Below the pieces are notes generated by a model. The model had not been told where the DNA came from. It worked only from the letters and a program-made list of their open reading frames with translations, and did no database searches. Shown piece by piece: positions 10,814 through 36,216 of a DNA stretch of 38,447 nucleotides. A program made the position numbers and the translations under genes. The DNA is from a bacterium (lineage in GTDB: Bacteria > Bacillota > Clostridia > Lachnospirales > Lachnospiraceae), in the NCBI GenBank assembly GCA_030539495.1, contig JAUNRX010000020.1:1-38447 (forward strand). The letters are read 5' to 3'. Numbering within the stretch: the stretch's first letter is position 1; the number at the start of each line of letters is the position of its first letter.

Positions 10814-10841
10814 AGAGTTCCGGAAGTTTATCCGGGGCTCT
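10814..10841 (+). repeat. Left copy of a 28-bp terminator-hairpin direct repeat (no T-tract)
   Basis: This hairpin (AGAGTTCCGGA...TCCGGGGCTCT) lies 28 bases after the symporter stop. It is identical to the hairpin at 11077-11104. Here it is followed by CAGCTTG instead of a T-tract, so it is unlikely to terminate efficiently. The 233-bp structured element sits between the two copies. Confidence 0.85.
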
Positions 10842-10842
10842 C

Positions 10843-11075
10843 AGCTTGTCGACAAAGTCGCCAAGCTTTGGATGAAATCAGGATTTCATCCAGCACCGAG
10901 GGAAATGATTAGTGCTCATTCGTGCAAGTCCTTAAAAGGCAGGACCTATTCGCACTAATCCGATATCCGAAAAGCGTCGTTTCCGGATATCGATTTGAAT
11001 GAACACCGATGGTTTTCATACTTTTCCCCAAGAATTACTTCGGAGAAAATGAAAAAATCACTTTGTCTACAGTCT
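10843..11075. repeat. Structured 233-bp element with terminal inverted repeats
   Basis: The left end AGCTTGTCGACAAAGT and the right end (read from the other strand) AGACTGTAGACAAAGT match at 13 of 16 positions. The inner DNA is almost entirely hairpins: GGATGAAATC/GATTTCATCC (10870-10891), GATTAGTGC/GCACTAATC (10907 and 10952), CGATATCCG/CGGATATCG (10961 and 10984), and an imperfect TTTTC...GAAAA pair near 11022-11049. The first 87 bases recur at 36111-36197. No credible protein is encoded. It looks like a MITE-like or RNA-forming intergenic repeat. Confidence 0.75.
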
Positions 11076-11076
11076 G

Positions 11077-11109
11077 AGAGTTCCGGAAGTTTATCCGGGG
11101 CTCTTTTTA
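11077..11109 (+). terminator. Terminator, right copy of the duplicated hairpin
   Basis: This is the same 28-bp hairpin as at 10814, here followed by TTTTTA. It is presumably the working terminator for the symporter transcript. The stem is AGAG-TT-CCGGA with TCCGG-GG-CTCT, where the TT/GG positions pair as wobbles in RNA. Confidence 0.8.
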
Positions 11110-11270: not shown

Positions 11271-11288
11271 CCGACCGACGGGTCAGTC
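11271..11288. promoter_or_regulatory. TetR-type operator over the RND transcription start
   Basis: CCGACC-GACG-GGTCAGTC is an imperfect palindrome with the GACC...GGTC symmetry frequent in TetR-family operators. It begins about 12 bases downstream of the -10 box, where repressor binding would block transcription. The TetR gene is the second gene of this transcript, so autorepression is likely (inference). Confidence 0.6.
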
Positions 11289-11327: not shown

Positions 11328-14300
11328 GTGATTTCAAAATTTAGTGTCAAGAAACCATATACCGTACTGGTAGGGGTAGTATTGGTAATCGTTCTTGGTA
11401 TTGTATCATTAACAAGAATGACAACAGATTTACTTCCAGACATGGATATGCCATATGCAATCGTTATGACTACATATGCAGGTGCTAGTCCGGAAGAAAT
11501 AGAGAAAGAGGTTACAGCCCCAATTGAAGGAGCAATGGCCACCACGTCCAATATAAAGAGCGTCAGTTCAACGTCATATGACAACTATTCGGTTGTTATT
11601 TTAGAGTATGAGCAAACAGCTAATATGGACTCTGTATTAATTGAAATGCAACAGAAACTGGACCAGTTAAAGGGAAATTGGAAGGATACCGTAGGTGCTC
11701 CAATGATCATGCAGCTAGATCCAGATATGATGCCAGTCATGGTAGCGTCAGCCGATGTAAAAGATATGTCCCAGTCAGAGATTTCTGAGTATGTAGAAAA
11801 TACATTGGTTCCTTCTTTAGAAAGTATTGAAGGGGTTGCTACAGTTACTACAACTGGAGCATTAACAGAAAATCTTCAAGTAACAATGGATAAAGATAAA
11901 ATCAAGGATTTAAATAAGAAAATTCAAAAGAAGATTGAAGAACAGTTTACAGAACAAGAAGATAAGCTATCCAGTTCCTCCAGTGAGATCAAAGAAGGAC
12001 AAGATAAGCTTCAAGACGGAAAAGAACAACTATCTGATAAGATGAGCTCTTCAACAAATGAGATCATTAATCAGAAAATTGAGCTTTCTAAGCAAGAAAC
12101 AGAACTTGCAAAACAATTAGAAGAGTTAAAGGCGAATAAGAAGTCAATGTCTTCTGCAATCGAGTCATTACAGGCAGCTTATGATGGAGCAACAAAGCTT
12201 GAAAATGCCATTGCTCAGTTAAAGACATTACAAGAAAGCCTTCCGGCAGTACGTCAAGGTGCAGTAGCAGCCTTACTTACTCAAAATCCACAAGCAACAG
12301 AAGAAATGCAGAAGCAAGCAGGGGATGCAGCTATTGCAGGCATGCTTTCTTCTTTAAAAGAGAAAACAGGATATGACATCAAGTCAGAAGAGCAGTTAAA
12401 GGCAACGGTTGACTCTCTTCAAGCAAATCTTGATGAAATCAATGCAAGCTTACAAAAACAAGCAGCAACATTTGCAGATGCAGGTGTTAAGATGACAACG
12501 TATAAAGACATCCCGGCAGCAGTTTCTCAGTTAAGCAAAACATTGACTCAGATCAACAAGGGAATTACAACAATCCAAGCTGGACAAAAGAAAATCAGCG
12601 AAGGTAAGACATCCCTAGACCAGGCACTTGTGACATTAAATCAAACAGAGATCAAGTCGATTCTTGAGATGAGCGAGTCTTCTTCAAAGCTTGACAGTGC
12701 ATCCAGTCAGATTACAGATGGAAAGTCTAAGTTAGAAGAAGCAAAAGACAGTGCGAAGAAGTCAGCAGATTTAAATACTGTCTTAACACTTGATAACTTA
12801 AATAATTTATTAGTAGCACAGAACTTCTCTATGCCGGCAGGTTACGCAGGAACAGGGGAAGATAAATATCTTGTACGTGTCGGAAACAAGGTTACTTCCG
12901 AAAAAGAATTAAAAGACCTTGTATTAGTAGACCTTGGAATGGATGGAATTGATCCAATCAAAGTATCCGATGTAGCAGAAATCAAGACAATTGATGACTC
13001 AGGGGATACGTATTCCAAAGTAAATGGCAACCCAGCCGTTATGCTTTCCTTTGAAAAGCAGACAGGATACTCAACAGGTGACGTTACTGATCGCCTATTA
13101 GATAAGTTTGATTCTTTAGAGAAACAAAATGCAGACTTAAATATGAGTGTTATGATGAATCAAGGTGTTTACATTGACATTATCGTGCAATCTGTTATGG
13201 AAAATATGATTGTCGGAGCAATCCTTGCTATTATCGTATTACTCCTATTCTTAAAGGATTTAAAACCAACATTAATTATTGCATGTTCCATTCCATTAAG
13301 TGTAATCTTTGCAATCGTATTAATGTACTTTAGCAATATATCATTAAATATCATTTCCTTATCAGGTTTAGCACTGGGAATTGGTATGTTGGTAGATAAC
13401 TCCATCGTTGTAATTGAAAATATCTACCGTTTAAGAAATGAAGGTTTATCTATCCGTAAGGCAGCCGTACAAGGTGCCAGCCAGGTGACAGGAGCAATTG
13501 TTGCATCCACACTTACAACAGTTTGTGTATTTGCACCAATCATCTTTACCGAAGGTATCACACGTCAGTTATTCGTGGATATTGCATTAACAATCGCATT
13601 TACATTAGCAGCCAGCTTATTAGTTGCCCTTACCTTTGTACCGATGATGGCAGCAGGCTTGTTAAAGAATACAAAAGAAATCAAACATGGTTTCTTAGAA
13701 CGTATATTAGATGGATATGAATTTGTATTAAGAAAATCCATGAAATTCAAAGCACTTGTATTTATCGTAGGTATTGTTCTTCTTGTAATCAGTGGAAAAG
13801 CAGCATTTTCAAGAGGATTCTCCTTTATGGATATGAACATGAGTACAGATCAGATTTCTGTAACGATTGCTCCAAAAGAAGGGGAAACACTTACCTTTGA
13901 TGAATTAACTACGGCTTCGGATGAAGTAATGGAGAAACTTTCCGGAATTGAAGGAATTAAAGATATTGGTGCCATGGCAGGTGGCGGCGGAATGCTTTCC
14001 TCTATGGGCGGTGGTTCTGCAAGCAGCGTGTCTATGTACCTTGTATTAGAAGAGGATGCAAAAGGCTCCAACCAAAAGATTATCGATCAGGTAAATGAAT
14101 TAACAAAAGATATGAATTGTGAAGTATCCACTAGTACTTCGGCATCGGGTGTAAGTTCCTTTATGGGAAGCGGTATCAGTGTAGAGATTAAAGGGAATGA
14201 TCTTGATAAGTTACAAGAACTTGCAGCAAAAGTTGCAGACGTTGTAAAAGGTACTGAAGGTACTGAAAAAGTACAAGATGGCCTTGATGATACAACACCA

Positions 14301-15266
14301 TCCTTTACAATCGTAGTAGATAAGGATAAGGCAGCAGAGTATAACATGACAGTTGCACAAGTATTCCAGATCGTACACAAGGAGATGGCTTCCAGCACAT
14401 CGGCAACTACGATTACGACAGATACAAAAGATTATGAAGTATTTGTTCAAAGTGAAGAACAAAGCGATGTTACAATCGACGATATTAAGAAGTTGAAATT
14501 TAGCTACACAGATCGTGAAGGCAAGAAAAAAGACATTCCATTAAGTAAGATTGCTAAGTTTGAAACAGGTACTTCCTTAAATAGCATTCAACGTGATGCA
14601 CAGGTAAGAACCATCAACGTAACAAGTGCAATTAAAGAAGGATACAATGTCAGCCTTGTAAGTAATGATATCCAAAAGAATTTAAAGAATATCGAGATTC
14701 CAGATGGTTATACCATTGAAATGGCCGGAGAAGATGAGCAAATCAAGGACTCCATGAATCAGTTAGTATTAATGCTTGTACTTGCCATCGTATTTATCTA
14801 TCTTGTAATGGTAGCACAGTTCCAATCCTTACTTTCACCATTTATCATTATGTTTACGATCCCATTAGCATTTACCGGCGGTCTGTTTGCACTGTTCTTT
14901 ACCGGAAATGAAGTAAGTGTCGTAGGTATGATTGGTTTCGTAATGCTTGCAGGTATCATTGTAAACAATGGTATCGTTATGGTAGATTATATCAACCAGC
15001 TTCGTCGTGAAGGCATGGATAAGAAAGAAGCAATCGTAGAAGCAGGTAAGACAAGATTACGTCCAATCTTAATGACAGCGTTGACTACAATCCTTGCAAT
15101 GTCAACAATGGCACTTGGACTAGGAAGTGGTTCGGAAATGATGCAGCCAATGGCAATCGTAACCGTTGGTGGTCTTATTTACGGTACCATCTTAACCTTA
15201 ATTGTAGTACCTTGTATCTATGATGTGTTTAATAGAAATAAGAGTATGGTAGAGGAGGAATTATAA
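11328..15266 (+). CDS. RND-family efflux transporter with long coiled-coil insertion
   Basis: A 1312-residue RND permease, well above the roughly 1050 residues typical of AcrB-type pumps. The first transmembrane helix (residues about 12-29), the porter start (DMDMPYAIVMTTYAGASPEEIEKEV) and two later helix bundles are standard. The excess is a stretch at about residues 190-485 rich in Lys, Glu, Ser and Gln with heptad-like repeats (EIKEGQDKLQDGKEQLS, ITDGKSKLEEAKDS), resembling the coiled coils of YhgE/Pip proteins. The TM4 motif is GMLVDNSIVVIEN, with one acidic residue where AcrB has two. The TM10 motif is GIIVNNGIVMVDY, with Asn at the AcrB lysine position. It starts at GTG with AGGAGGG upstream. 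No membrane-fusion adaptor gene is present, so the coiled coil may replace it (inference). Confidence 0.93.
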   Translation: MISKFSVKKPYTVLVGVVLVIVLGIVSLTRMTTDLLPDMDMPYAIVMTTYAGASPEEIEKEVTAPIEGAMATTSNIKSVSSTSYDNYSVVILEYEQTANMDSVLIEMQQKLDQLKGNWKDTVGAPMIMQLDPDMMPVMVASADVKDMSQSEISEYVENTLVPSLESIEGVATVTTTGALTENLQVTMDKDKIKDLNKKIQKKIEEQFTEQEDKLSSSSSEIKEGQDKLQDGKEQLSDKMSSSTNEIINQKIELSKQETELAKQLEELKANKKSMSSAIESLQAAYDGATKLENAIAQLKTLQESLPAVRQGAVAALLTQNPQATEEMQKQAGDAAIAGMLSSLKEKTGYDIKSEEQLKATVDSLQANLDEINASLQKQAATFADAGVKMTTYKDIPAAVSQLSKTLTQINKGITTIQAGQKKISEGKTSLDQALVTLNQTEIKSILEMSESSSKLDSASSQITDGKSKLEEAKDSAKKSADLNTVLTLDNLNNLLVAQNFSMPAGYAGTGEDKYLVRVGNKVTSEKELKDLVLVDLGMDGIDPIKVSDVAEIKTIDDSGDTYSKVNGNPAVMLSFEKQTGYSTGDVTDRLLDKFDSLEKQNADLNMSVMMNQGVYIDIIVQSVMENMIVGAILAIIVLLLFLKDLKPTLIIACSIPLSVIFAIVLMYFSNISLNIISLSGLALGIGMLVDNSIVVIENIYRLRNEGLSIRKAAVQGASQVTGAIVASTLTTVCVFAPIIFTEGITRQLFVDIALTIAFTLAASLLVALTFVPMMAAGLLKNTKEIKHGFLERILDGYEFVLRKSMKFKALVFIVGIVLLVISGKAAFSRGFSFMDMNMSTDQISVTIAPKEGETLTFDELTTASDEVMEKLSGIEGIKDIGAMAGGGGMLSSMGGGSASSVSMYLVLEEDAKGSNQKIIDQVNELTKDMNCEVSTSTSASGVSSFMGSGISVEIKGNDLDKLQELAAKVADVVKGTEGTEKVQDGLDDTTPSFTIVVDKDKAAEYNMTVAQVFQIVHKEMASSTSATTITTDTKDYEVFVQSEEQSDVTIDDIKKLKFSYTDREGKKKDIPLSKIAKFETGTSLNSIQRDAQVRTINVTSAIKEGYNVSLVSNDIQKNLKNIEIPDGYTIEMAGEDEQIKDSMNQLVLMLVLAIVFIYLVMVAQFQSLLSPFIIMFTIPLAFTGGLFALFFTGNEVSVVGMIGFVMLAGIIVNNGIVMVDYINQLRREGMDKKEAIVEAGKTRLRPILMTALTTILAMSTMALGLGSGSEMMQPMAIVTVGGLIYGTILTLIVVPCIYDVFNRNKSMVEEEL

Positions 15267-15901
15267 TGAGCCAAGCGGAGAAAGACTTGCTCAATAATCC
15301 ACCGGAAAAAGTAGTTTTAATGTATGATGCAGTAGTCAATCTGATTAACGAGAATAGTAATATCAATGCCATGAAGGTTGTTGATATTACGACTCGTGCA
15401 GGAATTGGAAAGGGTACGGCATACGAATATTTTTCAAGTAAAGAAGAAATCATCACAAAAGCATTGATGTTTGACACAATGAAAAAGATGCAAAGCCTGA
15501 AAAACATTGCAGATAGTGAGAGTAAGTTTGAACAGAAAGTAATGGGCGTTCTTGATTTCATTGCAGATAATTTCCATGAGAACCGTTCCTTCTGTCAGCT
15601 ATTTAAAATCAGTATGGCGGCTTATGATGTAACTGATCGTTTTTATCAGGAATTTGAAAAGGTTCAAGATATTGTGAACTGCAGACAGATGGAAGAAATC
15701 CAGGATCAGATTATGGAGACTGCAGCCAAAGAAGGGCTGATTACAGAAGCAAACATTATGAAGCGCAGAATGACATTTAACTCACAGGTCATCTCGTATT
15801 CCTTACTTCTTTTGATGGAACAAAAGAATACGGCAATGGGAATGACTCGTGAAAATGGAAAGCAATTTGTACTGGAAAGTATTATAAAGGTATTAAATTA
15901 G
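15266..15901 (+). CDS. TetR-family transcriptional regulator of the RND pump
   Basis: A 211-residue protein with an N-terminal helix-turn-helix (about residues 30-65: MKVVDITTRAGIGKGTAYEYF, then SKEEIITKAL). A ligand-binding helical domain follows. The ATG overlaps the pump's TAA by one base (TAATG), with GAGGAGG upstream, so translation is coupled. The likely role is ligand-released repression of the shared promoter through the palindrome at 11271. The inducer is unknown. Confidence 0.92.
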   Translation: MSQAEKDLLNNPPEKVVLMYDAVVNLINENSNINAMKVVDITTRAGIGKGTAYEYFSSKEEIITKALMFDTMKKMQSLKNIADSESKFEQKVMGVLDFIADNFHENRSFCQLFKISMAAYDVTDRFYQEFEKVQDIVNCRQMEEIQDQIMETAAKEGLITEANIMKRRMTFNSQVISYSLLLLMEQKNTAMGMTRENGKQFVLESIIKVLN

Positions 15902-15908
15902 AAATAGG

Positions 15909-15937
15909 TTGCTTATAGTATTAATTGTTGCTATAAT
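15909..15937 (+). promoter_or_regulatory. Strong promoter of the small RNA
   Basis: TTGCTT, 17 bases, then a perfect TATAAT. It starts 8 bases after the TetR stop codon and predicts a transcript start near 15944. Confidence 0.75.
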
Positions 15938-15943
15938 GTAATT

Positions 15944-16093
15944 GTATTAAATTGTCTGAGCGGAATTACCCGTTCCAAACAGACAATGTTGCCAGATAGA
16001 AGACAGCGGTGAAAGTCCGGTCGGTCCTATCTAAATGTTTGGCAAAATTGGGGATGCATTGGCTACCAACCCGGCCGGTGTACTCCCCTTTTT
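15944..16093 (+). ncRNA. Free-standing structured small RNA of about 150 nt, class unknown
   Basis: The DNA between a strong promoter and an intrinsic terminator folds into three domains. The 5' hairpin is TTGTCTG (15952) with CAGACAA (15980), and GGAA/TTCC inside. The central branched domain is closed by TTGCCA (15989) with TGGCAA (16040), containing GATAG/CTATC and an apical arm around GGTGAAAGTCC. The terminator stem is GGGGA (16050) with TCCCC (16084), an inner GCATTGGC/GCCGGTGT stem and the loop TACCAACCCG, ending in five Ts. No ORF has a ribosome site. The next gene is on the opposite strand, so this is not a leader riboswitch for it. It matches no RNA class I know; GGTGAAAGTCC only superficially resembles cobalamin and FMN riboswitch boxes. 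Confidence 0.7.
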
Positions 16094-16114
16094 GTTATAT
16101 AAAAATAATAGTAC

Positions 16115-16147
16115 ATAAAAAAAGACACGATTCGGTTCGTGTCTTTC
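16115..16147 (-). terminator. Terminator of the minus-strand lipoprotein gene
   Basis: AAAGACACGA pairs with TCGTGTCTTT around a 6-nt loop. On the minus strand it is followed by a run of seven Ts. It lies between the small RNA and the lipoprotein gene. Confidence 0.8.
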
Positions 16148-16149
16148 AG

Positions 16150-16193
16150 ATTATAGGAAACAAGGCTAAGAATACAAACTTGTTCCCTATAAT
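16150..16193. repeat. Long inverted repeat at the 3' end of the lipoprotein gene
   Basis: ATTATAGGAAACAAG (16150-16164) and CTTGTTCCCTATAAT (16179-16193) pair over 15 positions with one mismatch. The stem starts inside the lipoprotein stop codon. There is no T-tract, so it may protect the mRNA 3' end in front of the terminator at 16115. Confidence 0.65.
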
Positions 16194-17011
16194 TATTTGC
16201 AGGCAGAGAATTGTTTCATTAAGGCATTCATATCATTCTCTTTTCCTTTTAATCCGGTTAATGTAATAAAGATAAAGTTATTTTCTTTTTTACGAATATA
16301 TACTTTTTCCGTTACTTCCACAGAATTAACTTTCATAGTGACTGGTGCAACTAAATAGCTTTGACCACATAAGGTCTCAGTTACGGAGTCTCCAACCGTT
16401 GCCTTAACGGTTCCAAGACTGCTAAGCTGTGTCTTGAATGCTTCAAAGTATTGAGCTTCTGTCATAGAGTCGATCGTTGCTTTTTCTACACCTATGCTTA
16501 CATTAGGATATCCGGTCTTACCGGCAGCCATCATTTCATAAGTAACCATATCTTTTGTCAGTGCTTGTACTTCATCACTCTTATCACCATAGGCAATCTT
16601 GGCACCTTGTCCAAATGCTTGTTTTAATTGTTCCTTAGTTGCTAAGACATAGTCTTTGCTTGCTTTAAACTGTAATCCGATATATGTACTTTTGTATTCT
16701 TTGTCTGATAAGGTACCTGCTTTGTAGGTGTCAGTTGTAGGTGTGCTTGTAGCTGTTATTGCGGCAGAATCATCAGAAATCATAGTTCCTAGAGTTGCTT
16801 CTGGACTTGGTGTAGGAGTCCAGGTCGCTCCAGCCTCATAAAGTGTAGTGCTATCTGGGCTTGGAGCGGCAGTTGTGGCTTCTGCCGTTGGAGAGATACT
16901 TGCACTAGCCTCTGCAGAAATCTGCTCATTGCTTTTACAGCCGGAAAGCAGCATACAGCTGCAGCTTGCAGCCAACGTAACCATTGAAATCATAAGTTTT
17001 CTAATTTTCAT
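16193..17011 (-). CDS. Secreted lipoprotein of unknown function
   Basis: A 272-residue protein with a lipoprotein signal peptide. The lipobox LLSGC places the lipidated cysteine near residue 25. A low-complexity linker rich in Thr, Ser, Pro and Ala follows (about residues 30-95, for example TPTPSPEAT). The folded C-terminal domain of about 170 residues begins near STYIGLQFKASKDY. That pattern resembles clostridial lipoproteins whose domain handles stress or cell-surface binding, but I cannot name a family. The ATG at 17011 is chosen over a TTG one codon earlier; GGAG lies seven bases upstream. It has its own promoter and terminator. Confidence 0.8.
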   Translation of the reverse strand: MKIRKLMISMVTLAASCSCMLLSGCKSNEQISAEASASISPTAEATTAAPSPDSTTLYEAGATWTPTPSPEATLGTMISDDSAAITATSTPTTDTYKAGTLSDKEYKSTYIGLQFKASKDYVLATKEQLKQAFGQGAKIAYGDKSDEVQALTKDMVTYEMMAAGKTGYPNVSIGVEKATIDSMTEAQYFEAFKTQLSSLGTVKATVGDSVTETLCGQSYLVAPVTMKVNSVEVTEKVYIRKKENNFIFITLTGLKGKENDMNALMKQFSACK

Positions 17012-17043
17012 CAAAACACTCCTTTTTAATTTATACAGCCCCT

Positions 17044-22145: not shown

Positions 22146-22152
22146 ACAGTTA

Positions 22153-22238
22153 TATCTGGGGAGGTAGAGTATTACCTGAGAGGAAAGAGTGTTTTCGACC
22201 CATGTACCTGATTTGGATCATGCCAACGTAGGGAGATA
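22153..22238 (+). promoter_or_regulatory. TPP (THI-box) riboswitch
   Basis: The conserved core is clear: CTGAGA at about 22175, then ACCTGATTTGGATCATGCCA and ACGTAGGGA. Stem P1 is formed by TATCT (22153) and AGATA (22234). Thiamine pyrophosphate binding should favour the terminator at 22254 and shut off thiX-thiY-thiZ. Confidence 0.95.
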
Positions 22239-22253
22239 ATTATGTTAATTCAT

Positions 22254-22411: not shown

Positions 22412-23176
22412 ATGAAGAGTCATTCTATAGTAAAAAAGATAATACCAGTCCTATTTATAGTAAGTTTGTTAGGAGTCTGGGAAGCAGTTGTCAGAATAAA
22501 TCAAATTGAACCATATATTCTGCCGGCACCAAGTAATGTGGTAGACGCGCTGTGTAAGGACTTTCCTATATTATGGGACAATATGTTAGTAACCTTATAT
22601 GAAGGAATGCTGGGGTTTGTAATTGCCATTGGCTTATCATTGGTATTGGCCATTATCATTGACTTAGTGCCAGTATTAAAGGAAGCAATCTATCCGGTGC
22701 TTGTCATTTCACAGACCATTCCCACCATTGCAATTGCACCATTGTTTTTGATCTGGTTTGGGTTTGGTATATTGCCAAAGGTAGTCGTAGTCGTGCTTGT
22801 ATGCTTCTTTCCAATGGTAATCAGCCTGGTGGATGGAATGGAAGCCGTAGACCAAGACTTAATCAATCATTTTCAGTTAATGGGAGCAAATAAACTTCAG
22901 AGATTTGTACATTTAAAACTTCCATTTGGCCTGATTAACTTTTTCTCAGGAATGAGAATTGCGGCAACCTATAGCATTATGGGAGCAATTATTGGAGAGT
23001 GGCTTGGTGGAAATAAAGGACTTGGTGTCTATATGACAAGGGCAAAGAGTGTATATGCCATTGATAAGATGTTTGCGGCAATCGTACTGATCGTGGCAGC
23101 CAGCTTACTTGTATTTGGAGTAATTCATTTCATAGAGAAAATAACAACACCTTGGATGAGACAGAAAGGAGAGTAA
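22412..23176 (+). CDS. thiX: ThiX: ABC permease for thiamine pyrimidine precursor
   Basis: A 254-residue permease of the binding-protein-dependent family with about six membrane segments. The coupling motif that contacts the ATPase is EAVDQDLINHFQLMGANKLQRF, then LKLP (near residues 145-170). The segment after it contains GAIIGEWLGGNKGLG, typical of the SsuC/ThiX group. The start has TAGGAG seven bases upstream. The TPP riboswitch in the leader and the ThiY and ThiZ partners directly downstream identify the system as the importer of hydroxymethylpyrimidine or formylaminopyrimidine for thiamine synthesis or salvage. Confidence 0.92.
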   Translation: MKSHSIVKKIIPVLFIVSLLGVWEAVVRINQIEPYILPAPSNVVDALCKDFPILWDNMLVTLYEGMLGFVIAIGLSLVLAIIIDLVPVLKEAIYPVLVISQTIPTIAIAPLFLIWFGFGILPKVVVVVLVCFFPMVISLVDGMEAVDQDLINHFQLMGANKLQRFVHLKLPFGLINFFSGMRIAATYSIMGAIIGEWLGGNKGLGVYMTRAKSVYAIDKMFAAIVLIVAASLLVFGVIHFIEKITTPWMRQKGE

Positions 23177-23177
23177 C

Positions 23178-24176
23178 ATGAACAAAAGAATAACGAAACT
23201 ATTGGTAGCAGGAACATTAGCGGCAAGTATGATGCTTACGGCTTGTGGAAAAAACAATGAGGACGAGGACGGACTAAAGAAGGTTACAGTAATCTTAGAC
23301 TGGACAGCGAATACGAACCATACAGGACTTTATGTGGCAAAGGAAAAAGGCTATTACAAGGACCTAGGTCTGGATGTAGAAATCGTTGAACCAGCGGAAG
23401 GTTCTTCCCTTCAATTATTAGCAGCAGGCAAAGGTGATTTTGCAGTGAGCTATCAAGAGGATTTTACTTATGCATTGACTGCAGAAAATAAGCTGCCGCT
23501 TAAGGCAGTTGCGGCAATTATCCAACATAATACGTCAGGATATACATCCCCAGCATCCAAAGGAATTAAGACAGTAAAGGATTTCGAAGGTAAGGTATAT
23601 GGCGGCTACGGCGGACCAAGTGAAGATGCAATCTTAAAAATGGTAATGGAAGCAGGCGGAGCAGACTTTAGTAAGCTTACATCGGTAGTGGTAGGAACGG
23701 AAGACTTCTTTATGGCAACGAAAAACAACATTGATTTTGAATTGACCTTTGAAGGATGGACCAATATCGAGGCAAAGCTTAAGGGAGAAGAAGTAAACTT
23801 TATTCCTCTTCGTGAGCTAAATGAGAGTCTTGATTACTACACTCCAATAATTGCAACATCCAACAAGGTAATTGAGAATGATGAGGAAATGATTTATAAG
23901 TTTATGGAAGCAACTACAAAAGGATATGAGTTTGCAATTGAAAATCCGAAAGAGGCAGCAGAAGTACTTGTAACAGAAGTTCCAGGAATTGATAAAGAAC
24001 TAGCAGTAGAAAGCCAGAAATATCTTGCAGGCCAGTATAAAGCAGATGCTTCGAAGTGGGGCGAGATGAAGGACAGCGTATGGAACAACTATACAAAAGT
24101 CATGTTAGAAAATAAGTTAATTCAAGAAGATTTAGCAGCAAGCGAGGCGTATACCAATGAGTACTTACCAAAATAA
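23178..24176 (+). CDS. thiY: ThiY: pyrimidine-precursor-binding lipoprotein
   Basis: A 332-residue lipoprotein (lipobox LTAC, cysteine near residue 23) of the NMT1/THI5-like family. It captures the thiamine pyrimidine moiety outside the cell. Family features are VTVILDWTANTNHTGLYVAKEKGYY (in parts, residues 36-60), EPAEGSSLQLLAAGKGDFAVSYQED, and YGGYGGPSEDAILKMVMEAGG. It starts one base after thiX ends, with the ribosome site inside the thiX tail. Its 3' end overlaps thiZ by 20 bases. Confidence 0.93.
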   Translation: MNKRITKLLVAGTLAASMMLTACGKNNEDEDGLKKVTVILDWTANTNHTGLYVAKEKGYYKDLGLDVEIVEPAEGSSLQLLAAGKGDFAVSYQEDFTYALTAENKLPLKAVAAIIQHNTSGYTSPASKGIKTVKDFEGKVYGGYGGPSEDAILKMVMEAGGADFSKLTSVVVGTEDFFMATKNNIDFELTFEGWTNIEAKLKGEEVNFIPLRELNESLDYYTPIIATSNKVIENDEEMIYKFMEATTKGYEFAIENPKEAAEVLVTEVPGIDKELAVESQKYLAGQYKADASKWGEMKDSVWNNYTKVMLENKLIQEDLAASEAYTNEYLPK

Positions 24177-24885
24177 GATAGCTCTTTCCCATGTAAAGAA
24201 GTCATTTGGAACTGCTGAAATATTAAAGGACATTTCACTGGAGGTCAAGAAGGGGCAGGTAGTAGCTCTTCTTGGTCCAAGTGGAAGCGGCAAGAGCACC
24301 ATCTTTAATCTGATTACTAACCTGATTACTCCGGATGAGGGAACAATTACAGTGGATGGAAACGTTGGCTATATGTATCAAAAGGATACGATGGTGCCTT
24401 GGAAAAAGGTAATCGATAATATAGCCCTGCCATTACGTTTTCAGGGAATGAACAAGCGTGAGGCAAGAGAAAAGGCAATCAGCTATCTTGATACCTTTGG
24501 CTTGTCGGGATATGAAACTAAGTATCCATCTATGCTTTCCGGTGGGATGAAACAGCGTGCCAATTTCTTAAAGACCTATCTAACGTCCAATGACATTATC
24601 TTATTAGATGAACCATTTGGAGCATTGGATTCAATGACAAGAAAGAGAATGCAGATGTGGCTGTTATCAGTGACTAAAGAGATGAATGCAACCATCTTAT
24701 TAATCACCCATGATATTGAGGAAGCAATCTTTCTTGCAGATCAGGTATATGTATTATCAGATAAGCCTGCAACGGTGTTAGGACAGGTAGCCGTGGAATT
24801 TGAGACAGAACGAACAGAAGCAACCGTATTAGAAGAACGCTTTATTTCTTATAAGAAGAAAATCACAGAGATTTTGGAATTATAA
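24157..24885 (+). CDS. thiZ: ThiZ: ABC ATPase of the pyrimidine-precursor importer
   Basis: A 242-residue ATPase of the nitrate/sulfonate/taurine type. Walker A is GPSGSGKST, the Q-loop is YMYQKDTMVPWKKVIDNI, the signature is LSGGMKQRANFLKTYL, Walker B is IILLDEPFGALD, and the switch histidine is in LLITHDIEEA. The signature has Ala-Asn-Phe where Val-Ala-Ile is usual. The start overlaps thiY by 20 bases, so translation is coupled. No clear terminator follows. Confidence 0.93.
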   Translation: MSTYQNKIALSHVKKSFGTAEILKDISLEVKKGQVVALLGPSGSGKSTIFNLITNLITPDEGTITVDGNVGYMYQKDTMVPWKKVIDNIALPLRFQGMNKREAREKAISYLDTFGLSGYETKYPSMLSGGMKQRANFLKTYLTSNDIILLDEPFGALDSMTRKRMQMWLLSVTKEMNATILLITHDIEEAIFLADQVYVLSDKPATVLGQVAVEFETERTEATVLEERFISYKKKITEILEL

Positions 24886-27562: not shown

Positions 27563-27633
27563 GCGGGTGTAGTTCAATGGTAGAACACTAGCCTTCCAAG
27601 CTAGATACGTGGGTTCGATTCCCATCACCCGCT
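27563..27633 (+). tRNA. tRNA-Gly (anticodon TCC)
   Basis: A complete cloverleaf. The acceptor is GCGGGTG with CACCCGC, the anticodon arm is CTAGC-CTTCCAA-GCTAG, and the T-arm has GGGTTCGATTCCC. The discriminator is T and CCA is not encoded. It is transcribed with tRNA-Arg 23 bases downstream. Confidence 0.96.
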
Positions 27634-36110: not shown

Positions 36111-36197
36111 AGCTTGTCGACAAAGTCGCCAGACTTGAATGAGATCAGTATTTCATCCATTCCCTGGAGGAAACGATTACTGCTCATTCGTGTAAGT
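36111..36197 (+). repeat. Partial second copy of the 10843 structured repeat
   Basis: This 87-base block lines up with 10843-10929. The first 21 bases are identical (AGCTTGTCGACAAAGTCGCC and one more), and the end GATTACTGCTCATTCGTGTA differs from the first copy at two places. As at 10843, the element abuts a terminator hairpin on its left. The right half and the matching terminal repeat are missing. Confidence 0.8.
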
Positions 36198-36216
36198 GCT
36201 TTTGGGCAAAATAATA

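Follow-up and report, generated by a model that had tools for sequence, protein, structure and literature searches.

Immediately behind an RND efflux operon, the analysed stretch of DNA (38,447 nucleotides from a member of the Lachnospiraceae, contig JAUNRX010000020.1; in the following called the window) very probably contains a genuine RNA gene of about 150 nt, and the comparison with a related genome indicates that this gene is under selection. We propose, with a probability of about 50%, that it specifies a trans-acting small RNA, which is located in the 3' untranslated region of the tetR gene, has its own promoter, and would act by base pairing via the open ACCAACCC loop of its terminator. 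The RNA is probably new by sequence and ordinary in kind, i.e. a new regulatory small RNA. A literature search by title found no paper concerning it; it may nevertheless be included in a transcriptome list. The features of the locus are listed in Table 1.

Table 1. Features of the RNA locus and its surroundings (window coordinates; G001 is the related genome introduced below)
Feature	Position	Strand	Remarks
Small RNA	15944..16096	+	5' end presumably about 7 nt past the -10 box; 3' end at or just past the T run
Promoter, TTGCTT - 17 nt - TATAAT, TG at 15929-15930	15909..15937	+	read from sequence; 15902-15943 identical in G001 (42/42)
Domain 1	15951..15987	+	stem AUUGUCUG/CAGACAAU; upper stem GGAAU/GUUCC; loop UACCC; one of several near-equal folds
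Domain 2	15989..16045	+	UUGCC/GGCAA and AGAUAG/CUAUCU; apical loop UGAAAGU (16010-16016)
Domain 3, intrinsic terminator hairpin	16050..16093	+	open loop ACCAACCC (16065-16072); TTTTT 16089-16093
RND efflux permease (AcrB type), upstream operon gene	11328..15266	+	Pfam ACR_tran 8.7e-207; homologues in 4/4 genus genomes
TetR-family regulator	15266..15901	+	from ORF list; start overlaps RND stop by one base; Pfam TetR_N 7.9e-07
Terminator-like hairpin of convergent gene 16193-17014	16120..16147	-	unrelated hairpin there in G001
Many-copy element, ~237 nt, inverted ends	10840-11078		partial copy 36111-36201; copy loci L039-L063

Sharply bounded conservation and the family scans give good support for an RNA gene that belongs to none of the Rfam families. 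For the former, the window's own genome (G000) was compared with the one relative found to carry the RNA (G001). At positions 15944-16096, 149 of 153 nt are identical, which equals the conservation of the known RNAs of the window (tRNAs and a TPP riboswitch, 226/232). With gene borders drawn manually on the basis of the ORF lists, identity was 5122/7685 for third codon positions (Fisher p = 5e-21 versus the RNA) and 14217/15342 for first and second codon positions (p = 0.019). For other intergenic sequence it was 1514/1971 (p = 4e-12); these 1,971 are the aligned ones among 13,774 such positions, partly since the G001 contig ends opposite window position 27615. The top ones of 190 aligned non-coding 100-nt windows lie inside the RNA. 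When all 2,453 aligned windows of 150 nt are considered, the RNA shares the top identity (97.3%) with parts of conserved coding genes. In the 87 nt past the terminator (behind 16105), identity drops to 31/87. The gene order – RND, tetR, RNA, convergent lipoprotein-like gene – is common to both genomes. Three of the four differences in 15944-16096 fall inside the modelled RNA, all of them in domain 1; domains 2 and 3 show none. Each of the 45 pairs in the working structure is kept in both species, one of them being changed one-sidedly (A-U to G-U); as only two sequences are compared, this neither proves nor refutes the stems.

The family scans gave no assignment. Rfam 15 at its gathering cut-off lists no family at 15900-16100, and at E ≤ 10 there were three weak matches, the best of which (Trp_leader) reached 16.3 bits compared to a cut-off of 41 (E = 0.75). 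The original prediction, which named no matching RNA family, is thus borne out. Two candidates were absent from these three matches and were rejected: the cobalamin riboswitch, whose core GGUGAAAGUCC presumably resembles by eye, and domain V of group II introns, to which we took the RNA to bear some resemblance. The LhrC family was rejected as well; it gave no Rfam match, the loops of the RNA read UACCC, UGAAAGU, and ACCAACCC, and its CUCCC lies in the paired terminator stem.

Judged from the searches, the RNA appears to be narrowly distributed, being present in two of four genus genomes with no credible copy beyond, notwithstanding that a strongly diverged homologue could have escaped. A covariance model (R1) was built from the window and G001 copies, which therefore match by construction; at E ≤ 10 it has matches in two of the four genus genomes. 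By means of blastn, the RNA was detected in 2 of 61 genomes (own and G001). Among 397 family genomes, blastn gave matches in five, the own genome and four others; the latter four (20-36 nt) contain no credible copy, as they lie by eye in unrelated sequence and show no extension. R1 matched twice in 299 family genomes, in the own genome and in G315, where the match (18.7 bits, E = 0.065) was rejected due to many broken pairs. A 25-nt core pattern with at most three mismatches occurred in 1 of 397 family genomes, the own one; G001 and G002 are outside this set. Note that the three sets of family genomes overlap. A loop-to-loop pattern was found in six stretches of the collection genome_contigs, and R1 scores at the pattern site only in L019, the G001 record. 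Rejected for broken pairs or low scores were L021 (17.9 bits at a place away from the pattern site, E = 0.0041), L014 (18.7 bits, E = 0.0024), and L012 (11.5 bits, E = 0.22), all E-values being those of a small search. The same pattern had no match in viral_contigs, and the plasmids and phages searched gave no RNA match. In G003, R1 finds no RNA; different genes lie behind its RND homologue (48% identical) and upstream of its glycosyltransferase-4 neighbour (88%). Of the four genus genomes, only G000 and G001 have a match to tetR (E ≤ 1e-10), and matches to the lipoprotein-like gene (E ≤ 1e-8) are confined to this same pair.

About 150 nt of strongly paired sequence in three domains had been predicted originally, and the computed folds agree. 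For positions 15940-16093, the folding energy is -54.3 kcal/mol compared to a shuffle mean of -37.89 (z = -4.42; none of 200 shuffles as good). Without the terminator, z is -3.33 (1/200). Domain 1 alone, which is strong for its size, has z = -5.29 (0/200); domain 2 alone is weaker (z = -2.15; 10/200), and its alternative pairings differ by at most about 1.3 kcal/mol. In both species, the 7-nt stretches with a predicted open probability above 0.25 comprise the 5' end, UGAAAGU, and ACCAACC/CCAACCC; the 3' tail is open at 0.26 in the window copy only. For ACCAACC and CCAACCC in the terminator loop the predicted probability is 1.0 in both species, which makes this loop, as originally proposed, a good candidate for an interaction site. 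The other segment put forward as unpaired, GGTGAAAGTCC, is so in part: the apical loop UGAAAGU of domain 2 is predicted to be open (0.81), but the flanking GG and CC are paired.

The extended -10 promoter TGCTATAAT was described as near-consensus. This is true for the -10 box, as TATAAT (15932-15937) is perfect and preceded by TG, but not for the -35 box TTGCTT (15909-15914), which matches in three of six positions. The motif alone is weak, because TGNTATAAT occurs eight times in the window with 3.44 expected and because a promoter scan of the window did not list it; better support comes from the identity of all 42 positions between 15902 and 15943 in G001. At the other end, the expected terminator was recovered in all folds inspected: a hairpin of 15 bp with one bulge (16050-16088) is followed by TTTTT. 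It is missing from the output of a terminator scan of the window, for which the bulge is probably responsible.

The RNA had been regarded as a free-standing gene without a downstream coding partner. The latter is correct, as the next gene (16193-17014) is on the opposite strand, likewise in G001; this convergent gene is lipoprotein-like and has no match to Pfam or NCBIfam at E ≤ 0.001. An RNA gene outside Rfam also stands, but its free-standing nature is doubtful: the promoter begins at 15909, next to the tetR stop, which ends at 15901. By reading, no hairpin is seen in the A/T-rich stretch from the tetR stop to the RNA. The terminator scan lists no terminator on the + strand between tetR and the RNA either; its silence counts little, because it also missed the RNA's own. 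As no terminator is seen at this place, the RND-tetR mRNA should read into the RNA, which is therefore, as far as can be read from the sequence, probably not free-standing. Barring processing or some other stop, the operon mRNA would run through the RNA and end at its hairpin, such that operon transcript and RNA would share one intrinsic terminator.

This arrangement raises the question of whether the RNA is nothing but a folded 3' terminus of the RND-tetR mRNA, whose hairpins and terminator protect and end the message without any action in trans. Its strong hairpins are what one would expect in this case, and so is its position immediately after tetR, where no further terminator is visible. 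However, a terminator or stabiliser need not be 97% identical with loops and linkers included, the terminator of the neighbouring gene is unrelated in G001, and the promoter region is fully conserved. We consider this explanation rather unlikely.

Further observations were made in and around the operon. Just before the RND gene, at 11273-11284, the palindrome GACCGACGGGTC occurs, which reads GACCGGCGGGTC in G001 and is likely to function as a TetR operator. The operator-like palindrome GACCNNNNGGTC is present once in the window, at this same place, and control of the RNA promoter by TetR was consequently rejected. The RND permease possesses a long extra segment near its N-terminus (approximately residues 147-492), which gives weak scores with coiled-coil ATPase models. 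Between the RND gene and the upstream symporter gene, there is no ORF of at least 110 aa as a possible fusion partner. Farther downstream, the TPP riboswitch (22147-22251) lies ahead of genes that by eye resemble an ABC uptake system (22412-24885).

Domain 2 could be a core that binds a ligand or a protein, in which case the RNA would be a sponge or an aptamer-controlled RNA and not an antisense RNA. In accordance with this idea, domains 2 and 3 do not differ between the species, the apical loop of domain 2 is predicted to be open, and GGUGAAAGUCC bears by eye a putative similarity to a cobalamin riboswitch core. As a point against the proposed pairing in trans, domain 2, which is unchanged between the species, does not resemble a simple antisense RNA. 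On the other hand, no riboswitch family, cobalamin included, was found at E ≤ 10, the fold of domain 2 is weak, and there is no downstream gene to control; a binding core is thus quite improbable. Likewise improbable is a new class of structured RNA, in which TetR and the RNA in its 3' untranslated region would form a mixed protein-RNA efflux circuit; the invariant domain 2 would bind a ligand or protein, and pairing would be left to the terminator loop.

That the locus encodes a small protein is very unlikely. Open frames exist in both species, namely 15 codons from TTG 15952, 27 codons (26 in G001) from ATG 16035, and longer frames from 16009 on. Yet no ribosome-binding site is seen before these frames, two of three changes in the 15-codon frame alter the residue, and the other frames overrun the terminator, the longer ones into non-conserved sequence. 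Finally, it is hardly conceivable that the RNA derives from a mobile repeat, be it as a copy or as a remnant: a structured many-copy mini-element does occur in the window upstream of the RND gene, but the RNA is single-copy in its own genome (the second match comprises 25 nt with E = 0.08) and is found at the same place in G001.

The mini-element itself, which has no copy before the RND gene of G001, is strongly folded (z = -6.53 for 10830-11090). Counting partial matches, there are at least 45 in G000, at least 42 in G001, at least 38 in G003, and none in G002. Of 25 checked copies, 18 have an ungapped direct repeat of 13-31 nt with at least 85% identity precisely at their borders; with a nearly identical rule, this applies to 19 of 18,400 randomly chosen places. 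When shifts of the ends by at most 4 nt are permitted, which was not the case for the control, the repeats are found in 20 of the 25 copies and measure 11-31 nt. In 16 of these 20 repeated units, self-complementarity starts at the very ends and extends over at least four pairs, and in two more it does so with a one-base offset; 18 have at least five T in the last 10 nt of the right copy. Therefore, most of the repeated units look like whole intrinsic terminator hairpins. In an alignment of 24 of the 25 copies (L057 was excluded, as its right end is broken), 17 of 59 consensus pairs are changed on both sides, many of which reflect a single split between G003 and the rest. Four stretches of the viral collection contain the 18-nt end sequence; the right end was found in L096 and in none of the other three. 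In L096 (approximately 790-2300), both ends enclose a 1.5-kb element, which is bordered by a duplicated hairpin and encodes a transposase of the IS1182 family (485.6 bits, cut-off 270). It is likely to be an autonomous relative of the element in the window, and because of the shared ends the 237-nt repeat is probably a non-autonomous relative of IS1182 that inserts at terminators. According to PMC4923244, IS1272, a member of the IS1182 family, inserts into hairpins, several of which are terminators, with partial deletion of the target; a review cited there states that some IS1182 members target palindromes. In contrast to this partial deletion, the whole hairpin is duplicated in the element described here, and a limited literature search found no report of such a duplication.

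For the RNA, base pairing in trans is the most likely mode of action, judging from its anatomy and from precedent. Small RNAs of Gram-positive bacteria often pair via C-rich loops. Accordingly built, the ACCAACCC terminator loop and perhaps also the UACCC loop of domain 1 may serve as seeds for short pairing with G-rich sites such as ribosome-binding sites, and domains 1 and 2 would give stability or bind a partner. Several target searches were performed. When four loop segments were compared with 32 hand-set gene starts of the window, shuffled loops were as good in 60, 75, 82, and 87% of 60 shuffles. The RND leader of the window pairs with the RNA no better than shuffled sequence (64.7% of 300 as good). 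A match seen by eye between CGGUCGG of domain 2 and CCGACCG of the RND leader was rejected, since for the window copy the duplex with the whole leader is no better than shuffled. The target pattern GGGTTGGT with an ATG within 16 nt is not clearly enriched relative to a reversed control (18 versus 15 in G000, 11 versus 9 in G001), these counts including the RNA locus itself. Of the 29 target-pattern loci listed, 11 have an ATG frame of at least 100 codons, and as 73 or more open codons precede each of the 11, none resembles a simple start site, although this does not exclude them. The two genomes share one target-pattern site without any difference (L078, L088); the open frames in which it lies extend 172 and 152 codons upstream of it.

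Three known systems are comparable. The closest in layout is ArgX of Lactococcus lactis, which lies in the argR 3' untranslated region, has its own -10 promoter and a shared terminator, and for which no homologue was found in distant bacteria (PMC6586332). Like ArgX, the RNA directly follows the gene of a regulator with the same orientation, is predicted to have its own -10 promoter, presumably shares its terminator, and has no homologues found outside close relatives. The differences are that ArgX comprises about 66 nt and has a known target, the arc operon (PMC6586332), whereas the RNA described here has about 150 nt in three domains and accompanies TetR and RND efflux genes. LhrC of Listeria likewise combines hairpins and a terminator with C-rich seeds in loops, and mutating its loop A or its terminator loop reduced binding to lapB mRNA; it has CUCCC in two loops and a linker and occurs in several copies (PMC4132741), compared to ACCC loops and a single copy here. 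RsaC of Staphylococcus aureus is similarly placed at the 3' end of a transporter operon (mntABC) and is freed from the operon mRNA by RNase III (PMC9438474); for the RNA studied here, an own promoter is predicted.

If the proposed pairing of the RNA in trans is right, a TetR-RND efflux operon would be accompanied by a small RNA whose anatomy is clear and whose seed can be tested. ArgR-ArgX was reported as the first pair of a regulator gene and an sRNA in its 3' untranslated region (PMC6586332); the locus described here would then add another such pair.
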